A program made the translations under genes and the position numbers. From Acidobacteriota bacterium (lineage in GTDB: Bacteria; Acidobacteriota; Terriglobia; Acidiferrales; UBA7541): a stretch of DNA of 5,789 nt. This document shows, piece by piece, positions 1,561 through 4,070 of this stretch. Position 1 is the first letter of the stretch. Every line of letters starts with the position of its first letter. The notes under the pieces are model-generated. The model saw nothing but the letters and a program-made list of their open reading frames with translations. It did no database searches and was not told the DNA's origin. The stretch spans positions 1 to 5,789 of the forward strand of contig PLZZ01000152.1 of assembly GCA_003153585.1 (NCBI GenBank), given 5' to 3'.

Positions 1561-3276
1561 ATGCGACGAATTGGACATATCTTCACCCTCGTGGTGGCAG
1601 TCGCGCTTTGCGCGAGCGCCGGCTTCGCACAGGAAGGGAAGCTGAAGATCAAAGTGTCACCTCCTCAGGCATACGTGTTCGTGGATGGCAGCGCCATTCG
1701 CGACGGAAGCTACCCGGTCAAGCTGAGCGCAGGAAAACATACGGTGGTGGTGGTTAATTACGGGTACAAAATTTCTACGCAGGACGTAAACATCGAGGCC
1801 GGAAAATCCACGGCCCTCGCTGTGACACTGCAGCCATACGGCGACAAGGTTGCCGGCCCTTGGGGCCGCGTCTATATCTCCGGAACGGACGTTCGCGCCG
1901 CGGTTCTTTCGAACGGAAAGACTCCCGGATATTTTGTCGGCCACGTGGACGAATTCAATAACGACTTCTGGGTCTGGAAACAAGAATTGCTGCTGCCGCC
2001 CGGAACACATCATCTGACCATCACGCGCGGCGGAAAAGACCTATGGTCCGGCGACGTGAAGGTCGAGGCCGGGAAAAAAGTTTCGATTAACGTAGCCAAG
2101 AACACGCAAGTCACCACAGACTGGTCTAACCGTCAGGCTGAACTGCAAAAGAAGGCGCCGTTGCCACGGTTCTATGCGGGCATCGCTAGCGCGACTGTAG
2201 CTATCGCGCCGGTAAGGGCTACGATCACGAATTCGACTGCCAACATTAATTGCAGCCAGAATACGGACATTGCCTGGCAGACCACCGATGCGGTGGATGT
2301 GACCATTGACAATGGAGTCGGCGCTGTGGACGCAAGCGGCACCAAGTCCGTTTCACCGCGCGCAACCACCACCTACACGCTGACTGCGGCGGGACCGGGA
2401 GGGATCGTAACCGGCACCGAAGCTGTTAATGTCAACACCACCGTGGTAGCTAGCGTCACGTCAAATCCCACGGAACTGCACTATCGCAAGATCGGCGACA
2501 AAGTCATCACCGATGACAATGGCACGCTGACCTGGACCACCTCGAACGCTGACTCCGTGAACATAACTCCAATCGGCAAAGTAGATCTCAACGGCAGCCA
2601 GACGATCAAGGCGGACCCCACCAAGACCGACATCGGCTCCGTGGACGAGAACAGGAACTACAGTCTGACGGCGACAAACGTCTGCGGCGGAACTTTGACG
2701 CAAACCGCGTCCGTTCACGTGACCGGCTCTATCGAGCCGATCCCAGCCGTCGTTCTGCAGAGCATCTTCTACCCCACGGACTATCCGGATAAAGGTCATC
2801 CGCAAGTTGGCCTGGTAAAGAGCCAACAAATGGAGCTCGCCACGCTGGCCGACGGGTTTAAGAAATATCTCGAGTACGACGGCGATGCGAAGCTCTCTAT
2901 CGAATCGCACGCCGACATCCGCGGCTCAAAGCCCCACAACCAGGATTTGAGCGAGCGTCGCGTCGAGCGTATTAAACAGTATTTGGTCGATCAGGGCATC
3001 TCCGCCGACAAAATTCAGACTGCCGCGTACGGAAAAGAGCGCCAGCTGGAAAAGTCGGAAGTAAAGACCCTGGAAGACACCAATCCGAACAAGGCTCCCA
3101 AGGCACGCGCGGGGAACAAACAGGGCAGCTGGCTGGCCTACAACCGCCGTGCGGACATCGTGCTGTTGCCTTCCGGCAACAAGTCGGCGCAGTTCTACCC
3201 GAACAATGCTGACGACTCCGGAATCATCTGGCAGATGCCGAAGCCGCCGCTCAAGAGGGTCGAAGCAGCTCAATAG
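1561..3276 (+). CDS. Secreted PEGA / Ig-like / OmpA-domain cell-envelope protein
   Basis: A 571-residue exported protein that probably anchors to peptidoglycan. The ATG at 1561 follows AGGAG (1548-1552) with an eight-base gap and opens a clear signal peptide: MRRIGH, a hydrophobic core to about residue 20, and likely cleavage after Ala23 (GFA-QEG). The open frame extends upstream to 1384, but that extension has no ribosome site and would bury the signal peptide. Domains: PEGA at about 27-91 (VSPPQAYVFVDG, then SAGKHTVVVVNYGY); a second PEGA-like beta unit at about 102-179 (LPPGTHHLTITRGG); two Ig-like beta domains at about 211-294 and 296-389, each with a threonine-rich TYTLTA or NYSLTATN strand; and an OmpA C-terminal domain at about 398-538. 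The OmpA domain keeps the residues known to bind diaminopimelate, Asp452 (HADIRG) and Arg467 (LSERR), and ends with NRRADIVLLP. About 30 extra residues (495-525) sit between its last helix and strand. No outer-membrane barrel is visible, so it is probably periplasmic or envelope-associated. It is transcribed alone and ends at the terminator at 3296. Confidence 0.88.
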   Translation: MRRIGHIFTLVVAVALCASAGFAQEGKLKIKVSPPQAYVFVDGSAIRDGSYPVKLSAGKHTVVVVNYGYKISTQDVNIEAGKSTALAVTLQPYGDKVAGPWGRVYISGTDVRAAVLSNGKTPGYFVGHVDEFNNDFWVWKQELLLPPGTHHLTITRGGKDLWSGDVKVEAGKKVSINVAKNTQVTTDWSNRQAELQKKAPLPRFYAGIASATVAIAPVRATITNSTANINCSQNTDIAWQTTDAVDVTIDNGVGAVDASGTKSVSPRATTTYTLTAAGPGGIVTGTEAVNVNTTVVASVTSNPTELHYRKIGDKVITDDNGTLTWTTSNADSVNITPIGKVDLNGSQTIKADPTKTDIGSVDENRNYSLTATNVCGGTLTQTASVHVTGSIEPIPAVVLQSIFYPTDYPDKGHPQVGLVKSQQMELATLADGFKKYLEYDGDAKLSIESHADIRGSKPHNQDLSERRVERIKQYLVDQGISADKIQTAAYGKERQLEKSEVKTLEDTNPNKAPKARAGNKQGSWLAYNRRADIVLLPSGNKSAQFYPNNADDSGIIWQMPKPPLKRVEAAQ

Positions 3277-3295: not shown

Positions 3296-3339
3296 AAAAA
3301 AACGCGCCGGAGGGAGATCCTCTCCGGCGCGTTTTTTTT
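3296..3339. terminator. Bidirectional Rho-independent terminator
   Basis: A perfect 10-bp GC-rich stem, CGCGCCGGAG (3303-3312) with CTCCGGCGCG (3322-3331), encloses a nine-base loop. It is followed by eight T (3332-3339) and preceded by seven A (3296-3302), so it works on both strands. It sits 20 bases after the secreted-protein stop and 24 bases after the stop of the convergent peroxiredoxin-like gene, and ends both transcripts. Confidence 0.95.
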
Positions 3340-3362
3340 GGCATGATGAAATTTGGTGCGCC

Positions 3363-3902
3363 TCAGCCTCGATCGAGCGCGGCCAGGAGCGTAGCCGGAG
3401 TGGCATTGTCGCCGAAGGTTTTGCTCACGTGCGCGAAACGATCGATGTCTCCCGGCGCGAAGATGAAACTGCCGCCGAGCTGAAAGGGATTCTGGCCAAG
3501 TTTGTGCTGATGATGCCCGGCCGCTTTCGCGCGATTGCGGCTCTCGAAATTGTCGCGTCGGGCTAGGTGCAACAGATTAGCGGAACGCAGGTTGGCGACG
3601 GCGTAAGCCTGGCGCTGTTCGTCGATCAACAGGGGAAACGCTATTCCCGTTTCTTCGCGGAAAATTTCCGCATAGTGTCGGTCGCCAAGTCCGACGGCGG
3701 CGAGCGACGCGCCCTTATCCAAAAAGGCTTGTTCGTGTTCGCGCAACTGCGCGACGTGCTCCCGGCAAAAAATTCAGCCATAGTGCCGTAGAAAAACGAT
3801 GACGGCAGGTTTGTTCTCCCACAACGAACCGAGACGGATTTCCCGCCCGGAGACGTCCGGAAGAACGATATCCGCGAGCCTTTTGCTGAGAGTTTCCTGC
3901 AC
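3363..3902 (-). CDS. Putative selenoprotein: peroxiredoxin-like (AhpC/TSA_2, SelU/PRXL2-type) with UxxC active site
   Basis: Reading from GTG 3902 through one in-frame TGA (3776-3774, residue 43) gives a continuous 179-residue thioredoxin-fold protein; the true stop is TGA at 3365-3363. Before the TGA come LADIVLPDVSGREIRLGSLW (9-28) and the core strand PAVIVFLRHYG (32-42). After it come IFCREHVAQLREHEQAF (44-60), GASLAAVGLGD (64-74), the typical GIAFPLLIDEQRQAY (86-100) and a final GGSFIFAPGDI (143-153). Family members read FLRH(F/Y)GCxFCREHVAQL here, so the TGA replaces the first, catalytic cysteine of CxxC. Cys46 is the only cysteine. Proteins of this family are thiol-dependent peroxidases or oxidoreductases, and the eukaryotic relative SelU also uses Sec in UxxC. 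A SECIS-like hairpin follows. Two in-frame TGA codons directly upstream of GTG 3902 limit the start, and no in-frame ATG exists. Standard calling would give a 127-residue piece from TTG 3746, lacking the active site. A nonsense mutation or sequencing error (TGC or TGT to TGA) is the alternative, but the frame and motifs are intact on both sides. Confidence 0.8.
3739..3754 (-). promoter_or_regulatory. Putative bacterial SECIS hairpin
   Basis: On the minus strand, CGCGC (3753-3749) pairs with GCGCG (3744-3740) around the loop AGTT (3748-3745), and a further T-A pair (3754 with 3739) extends the stem to six pairs. The loop starts 26 bases after the TGA and has G at its second position. This matches the known bacterial SECIS pattern: a short stem within the coding sequence, and a loop 16-37 bases downstream with a G among its first two bases, read by SelB. 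A weaker outer pairing GGCT (3779-3776, including the T of TGA) with AGCC (3729-3726) is possible. The fit was judged by eye without folding energies. Confidence 0.6.
3774..3776 (-). other. In-frame TGA, proposed selenocysteine codon (Sec43)
   Basis: The plus strand reads TCA here, so the minus-strand codon is TGA, between GGC (Gly42) and ATT (Ile44). It occupies the position of the peroxidatic or first redox cysteine in the RHYG-x-IFC motif, giving UxxC. It is the only stop in the 179-residue frame before the natural end. Cysteine codons TGC and TGT differ from TGA by one base, so recoding and mutation both explain it in principle. The active-site location and the hairpin downstream favour recoding. 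Confidence 0.75.
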
Positions 3903-3910
3903 GTAGAATC

Positions 3911-3940
3911 ATCATTGCCGACCTAATATTCTTCTGTCAA
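3911..3940 (-). promoter_or_regulatory. Candidate promoter of the selenoprotein-like gene
   Basis: On the minus strand, a perfect TTGACA (3940-3935) is followed after 18 bases by AATGAT (3916-3911; four of six bases match the -10 consensus). Transcription would start about two bases before GTG 3902, giving an almost leaderless message. This agrees with the absence of a Shine-Dalgarno before that GTG. The -10 match is modest, so the exact start is uncertain. Confidence 0.35.
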
Positions 3941-4070
3941 GACGGCATCGTCTCTTTCCGTTTCCTGCCGTTTGGCAGCGGAACAGTTTCCGGGCAAAGG
4001 CTGCGCGCTCCCGACATCTAATCCCCTCCTGGGCAGAAATCCATCTTCACGCTCATGGTAGTAATGTAGG

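Follow-up and report, generated by a model that had tools for sequence, protein, structure and literature searches.

A peroxiredoxin-like gene of Acidobacteriota with an in-frame TGA: a probable SelU-like bacterial selenoprotein

Is the single TGA that interrupts a peroxiredoxin-like gene of an acidobacterium, probably one from soil, a stop, an error or a codon for selenocysteine (Sec)? The gene lies on the minus strand of a stretch of 5,789 nt (contig PLZZ01000152.1, the window in what follows, whose numbering is used throughout). Our analysis indicates that positions 3363-3902 very probably code for a redox enzyme of the SelU/PRXL2 kind whose active site is UxxC. By prediction, the TGA at its codon 43 is translated as Sec through SelA, SelB, SelC and SelD and a likely Sec insertion sequence (SECIS). 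This judgement is drawn from sequence comparison. The elements at the center of it are the following.

3363-3902, minus strand: region coding for the SelU-like protein, from GTG 3902-3900 to the TGA stop 3365-3363, recognized by its frame, family match and conservation on both sides.
3774-3776, minus strand: in-frame TGA, codon 43, predicted Sec at the first position of UxxC, with TGA in 36 of 36 loci and cysteine (Cys) in remote homologues.
3765-3767, minus strand: TGC, Cys46, the predicted resolving cysteine.

When the TGA is read through, the frame 3366-3902 gives one continuous protein of 179 residues from GTG 3902. Its sole internal stop is the TGA at 3776-3774, within RHYG-U-IFC-REH, and it is ended by the very next codon. 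The choice of GTG 3902 as the start is supported by another in-frame TGA three codons upstream and by relatives (e.g. P0003) that begin at or near the same residue. With Cys put in place of Sec, the best Pfam match was PF13911 (AhpC/TSA_2) with 54.2 bits (cut-off 27), confirming the claim of the original prediction that a frame of this family runs on both sides of one TGA. The protein also passed PF00578 (46.4 bits, cut-off 26) and PF08534 (30.8 bits, cut-off 26.6) and, again with Cys for Sec, the NCBIfam model NF040769 'SelL-related redox protein' (127.1 bits, cut-off 120). The active site reads FLRHYGUIFC, a UxxC motif with predicted Sec43 and Cys46. Among solved structures the best relative, by fold and profile match, was human PGFS, which we take to be PRXL2B, a mammalian relative of SelU. 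The motif of SelU is UxxC and its family is presumably PF13911. The SelU likeness that had been proposed holds in the sense of a shared Pfam family and fold, not as orthology.

We have compared the gene with 30 close loci (the window included, repeats removed) and with six distant loci of the same phylum at 36-40% identity to P0003. TGA was found at codon 43 in all 30 close and all six distant loci; its retention in close homologues was one of the checks named in the original prediction. A scan of named genome contigs gave eight loci. Six of them (70-92% identity), all records of Acidobacteria or Candidatus Acidiferrales, had TGA at this codon, and the other two (34-38% identity, from Chloroflexi and Planctomycetia) had Cys. 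Judged by percent identity, the six look identical to six genes of the class-genome set. In this set, the 399 genomes of the window's class, there were 41 matches in 40 genomes. All 24 full-length ones (about 59% identity or more) had TGA at codon 43, one of them being reported with a second TGA that is apparently its end. One match was a decayed fragment (L048). Sixteen matches had 28-37% identity, seven with an internal TGA and nine with none; five of these were read at the site, two having TGA (L049, L050) and three Cys (L051-L053). The phylum search (396 genomes, P0003 as query) found 15, 14 with TGA and one (genome G729) with Cys. The TGA takes the place of the first Cys of a CxxC motif, just as had been proposed, since the aligned position is Cys in more remote homologues and in 22 of 30 full-length database relatives. 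An in-frame UGA opposite the Cys of homologues and kept in relatives is what marks a selenoprotein gene, and this is what we found. Codon 46 was TGC in 28 and TGT in two of the close loci. Among the same loci, nonsynonymous changes were well below synonymous ones on both sides, with mean pN and pS (nonsynonymous and synonymous differences per site) of 0.263 and 0.707 upstream of the TGA and of 0.249 and 0.721 after residue 56, indicating purifying selection over both parts.

Downstream of the UGA there is a candidate for the signal that would recode it.

3739-3754, minus strand: hairpin of the SECIS type, UCGCGC-AGUU-GCGCGA, at a distance of 25 nt from the UGA and with its loop at 3748-3745, detected by synonymous freezing, a codon-shuffle test, pair counts and the fold of a 19-nt piece.
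3744-3746, minus strand: TTG (Leu53) within the hairpin, the false start of a 127-residue open reading frame (ORF), TTG in all 30 close loci.

The bacterial SECIS (bSECIS) model, as given in the consulted part of PMC13188914, has a loop of 3-9 nt with a G in its first two positions and a stem of 4-16 bp, located 16-37 nt after the UGA, with an energy of -7.5 kcal/mol or lower. The hairpin of the window, with a loop of 4 (AGUU), a stem of 6, a distance of 25 nt and -9.4 kcal/mol, lies within all these limits. Synonymous change is almost absent from codons 48-54. Among the 30 close loci codon identity, given the same residue, was 0.93 here, compared with 43% on average and at most 58% in the other 152 windows of seven codons. 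The constant TTG of Leu53 belongs to this pattern, TTG making up 12% of the remaining leucine codons. Hairpins conforming to the model were present in 27 of the 30, against a mean of 1.87 and a maximum of 6 after synonymous shuffling within the gene (100 rounds). In the distant loci the number was three of six (null mean 0.74, maximum 3), a count that this cut-off does not separate from the null, and in the Cys loci one of five (null mean 0.36, maximum 2). Even so, a stem-loop stands 25 nt from the UGA, as in the window, in five of the six distant loci, in some cases built of different letters (GCGGUGC-AGGU-GCAUCGC in L066, CGCCG-AGUUA-CGGCG in both L068 and L069). When pairs were counted in a fixed register over the 36 sequences (35 distinct), 81.2% of the cells paired, and four of the seven pairs had changes on both sides, a value reached by 1 of 500 shuffles. 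Covariation in the hairpin is modest, supportive and not decisive. The 19-nt piece holding the hairpin folded with -10.2 kcal/mol (z -2.96), a piece that was picked after the fact. An Rfam scan of 3300-4000 up to E 5 gave four weak matches below cut-off and no SECIS family. We regard this hairpin as a likely SECIS.

The source genome is a draft of 3.28 Mb in 267 contigs, 73.8% complete. All four genes of the Sec pathway, which the original prediction had named as the ones to look for, were detected in it. The tRNA-Sec (selC, anticodon tca) scored 65.4 bits (gathering score 47), selB 374.5 (cut-off 242), selA 463 (cut-off 22.8) and selD 380.8 (cut-off 125), so that the complete set expected beside a selenoprotein gene is present. 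Use of Sec looks common in the window's class, with tRNA-Sec in 269 of the 399 genomes. It was found in 22 of the 24 genomes carrying the TGA gene and in 247 of the 375 others, 16 of which have other matches (one-sided Fisher p 0.005, kinship ignored). Adding the further carriers of the phylum set, all with tRNA-Sec (12 of 12), it was found in 34 of 36 TGA carriers. The Cys carrier G729 had no tRNA-Sec, and its best selB match was below the cut-off.

A mechanism can be proposed from these elements. SelB would bind the AGUU hairpin and bring Sec-tRNA(UCA) to the UGA. Sec43, situated directly before a predicted helix (44-55), would be the attacking selenol and might reduce a peroxide- or disulfide-type substrate. 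A Se-S bond with Cys46 would then form and be reopened, perhaps by thioredoxin. When selenium is lacking, translation would be expected to end after residue 42.

Several observations weigh against this interpretation. Three of the 30 close loci (L032, L041, L062) and three of the six distant ones miss the energy or stem limits of the bSECIS model. Neither 60 nt (z 0.17) nor 48 nt (z 0.38) of the sequence after the UGA folds better than its dinucleotide shuffles, and sliding the pairing register by +3 likewise gave four pairs changed on both sides. At the Sec site, eight of the 30 full-length relatives in the database carry a residue that is neither Sec nor Cys (Trp, Arg or Gly). Genome G312 (73% complete) carries the TGA gene with neither tRNA-Sec nor selB found, and in another carrier, G288, tRNA-Sec was not found and selB was present. 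Against a strict link between TGA and machinery are also G343 (L049) and G238 (L050), with no tRNA-Sec at the threshold used and selB in both. As for the mechanism, the substrate class and the thioredoxin partner are what we infer.

The database records bear on one of the alternatives. We examined the best 120 of 1905 relatives, of which 30 had at least 165 residues and the remaining 90 had 119-144. The full-length records showed at the Sec site Cys in 22, Trp in six, Arg in one and Gly in one. The six with Trp come from metagenomes (P0005, P0025, P0042, P0043, P0048, P0055) and are possibly cases of TGA read with code 4 by the gene finder, or of a real TGG. Among the short records, the starts tallied (69 of 90) were located after codon 43. 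Two were given a name by NCBI (P0034 and P0045, 'peroxiredoxin-like family protein') and have 127 residues, the length of the ORF that starts at TTG 3746-3744 inside the hairpin and has neither residue 43 nor residue 46. It had been foreseen that routine annotation would yield just this fragment devoid of its active site, and the ORF list and the database entries agree. In this way automatic annotation has removed the active site from many database entries. Several of the truncated entries bear the name 'AraC-like DNA-binding protein' or methyltransferase, which comes perhaps from a weak, sub-threshold HTH_18 match of the window protein.

These entries, with the mechanical ORF list, are what would favor a true stop at the TGA and a small protein of 127 residues made separately from TTG 3746. 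We find this very improbable. Purifying selection acts on residues 1-42 just as it does on the remainder of the protein, the fragment would be devoid of both active-site residues, and the TTG is constant as a codon within the frozen hairpin, as expected of a hairpin letter. A sequencing error or a pseudogene could be suspected in a draft of many contigs, and one relative (L048, genome G170) is indeed a decayed copy, homologous from residue 70 on and with its frame broken upstream. The same TGA in other genomes makes an error at 3774-3776 unlikely, random frame damage was absent from the 36 TGA loci and confined to this decayed copy, and pN is well below pS; the probability left to this explanation is practically negligible. 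Support for a selenium-free reading, in which a general suppressor or an alternative code puts Trp, Cys or some other residue at the UGA, could be drawn from the Trp, Arg and Gly records, be they real codons or the gene finder's code. However, TGA also terminates this same gene, Cys is the prevailing residue in the full-length relatives, and no role would be left for the Sec machinery or for the frozen hairpin. We give this reading very little credit. All three have been rejected on the grounds just given.

A different matter is whether the enzyme, being a selenoprotein, does what we propose. It might be a regulator or, like human PGFS, an enzyme for a special substrate, and not reduce peroxides or disulfides with the help of thioredoxin. 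That PGFS is the closest solved relative speaks for this, as does the lack of a conserved neighbour that would indicate a pathway. On the other side, a UxxC motif within a thioredoxin-like fold is in keeping with thiol-disulfide chemistry of the general kind, and we hold the special function to be rather unlikely, with a weight that has to be reckoned with. The selenoprotein reading itself is supported by the conserved TGA, by the sel genes and by the hairpin frozen at synonymous sites.

The surroundings of the gene add a possible promoter.

3911-3940, minus strand: promoter-like TTGACA-18-AATGAT near the start codon, one found against 0.4 expected.

An exact TTGACA is present 29-39 nt upstream of codon 1 in 18 of the 30 close loci. 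As the -10 box lies right in front of the start codon, the transcript may have almost no leader. On the other flank, an 11-bp inverted repeat (loop of 9) between A and T runs at 3302-3332 resembles a shared two-way terminator and separates the selenoprotein gene from a convergent OmpA/PEGA-domain gene (1561-3276, plus strand). The signal scan that gave the promoter-like site did not list it. We have compared the ORFs of the window with the loci of 29 relatives (flanks of about 1.5 kb for 23 of them and longer ones for six) and found neighbours in common with L016 and L017 alone. Judged from their coordinates, the remaining recurring ORFs are apparently frames overlapping the gene itself.

Other redox genes with an internal TGA were found. 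The source genome has a second one, of the Bcp/PrxQ peroxiredoxin type (L073, G000:C67:8287-8670, TGA at 1618-1620 of L073). Its site is PKANTPG-U, of the PxxxTxxU type listed as verified in PMC13188914. The RNA after its UGA forms a bulged hairpin with the loop GUU 17 nt downstream (z -1.32), which was not accepted by the perfect-stem scan. In a genome of the same genus (G238) a different redoxin-like gene (L050, 1597-1650) has TGA in GHW-U-PFC and, 16 nt after it, the 7-bp hairpin CUCCGCC-AGUU-GGCGGAG, with the AGUU loop of the window. In the same class (G343, reported as 100% complete) L049 has, around 1591, TGA in RHFG-U-QFY, that is UxxY instead of UxxC, and the hairpin CUCGCGC-AGUU-GCGCGAG.

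In a tree of 70 proteins the Sec and Cys forms are interleaved. The Sec label requires 16 changes, at least eight of them forced by starred (well-supported) branches, and the Cys label 14, at least seven of them forced; the eight Trp, Arg and Gly records are scattered tips. The bootstrap of this tree is unsettled, and 24 of its 36 Sec rows come from one class. A change from Sec to Cys is described as rare in prokaryotes in the consulted part of PMC13188914. Tentatively, and with less than even confidence, we suggest that the SelU-type UxxC protein could be an old bacterial family spread over the Acidobacteriota with many exchanges of Sec and Cys (at least seven forced), that eukaryotic SelU and a bacterial selenoprotein may go back to a common Sec ancestor, and that Sec-to-Cys change in bacteria could be less rare than described.

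Among known systems, one from the same Pfam family is the bacterial AhpC/TSA selenoprotein (PF13911/cd02970), with Sec in a U-x-x motif. Table 1 of PMC13188914 (2026, 119 prokaryotic selenoprotein families) has cd02970 as UxxS only, and the single appearance of PF13911 in the part of PMC9312934 consulted is also UxxS. The window protein does not belong to this type by its motif description, having Cys46 and not Ser in all 30 close loci. A different motif is counted as a different subfamily in the relevant parts of both papers. We have found no report of a UxxC subfamily of PF13911 in the literature searched (open-licence, with most subscription papers outside), and such a subfamily looks new in bacteria. 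If true, it would be an addition to the 2026 table. NCBIfam names the family of the window protein 'SelL-related'; SelL, however, has two Sec two residues apart with one SECIS for both (PMC3316567, in the part consulted), and here there is one predicted Sec followed by Cys, codon 46 being a Cys codon in every close locus, which sets the protein apart from UxxU. The UxxC motif itself is shared with the Prx-like thiol:disulfide oxidoreductase (PF00578) and the redoxin family protein (PF08534) of Table 1 in PMC13188914. The window protein passes both cut-offs, but its best match is PF13911, so these families are set apart by description and may overlap with it. With the Sec peroxiredoxin (PF00578, TxxU), of which L073 is an example in the same genome, the superfamily is in common, and the site FLRHYGUIFC is not PxxxTxxU. 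Since the gene is small and has no conserved neighbours, its enzyme lends itself to direct comparison of the Sec form with the Cys form. Finally, the peroxiredoxin-like family is in common with eukaryotic SelU (SELENOU, PRXL2 family), the likeness being through family and PGFS fold only, and the hairpin of the window differs in being of the bacterial type, inside the coding region. In the Sargasso and Global Ocean Sampling (GOS) surveys, as far as the consulted parts tell, SelU sequences were found and assigned to eukaryotes, with no bacterial SECIS. If our reading is true, this family has bacterial relatives with an internal SECIS, and the gene, provided that its TGA is read as Sec, would be an overlooked bacterial counterpart of animal SelU.
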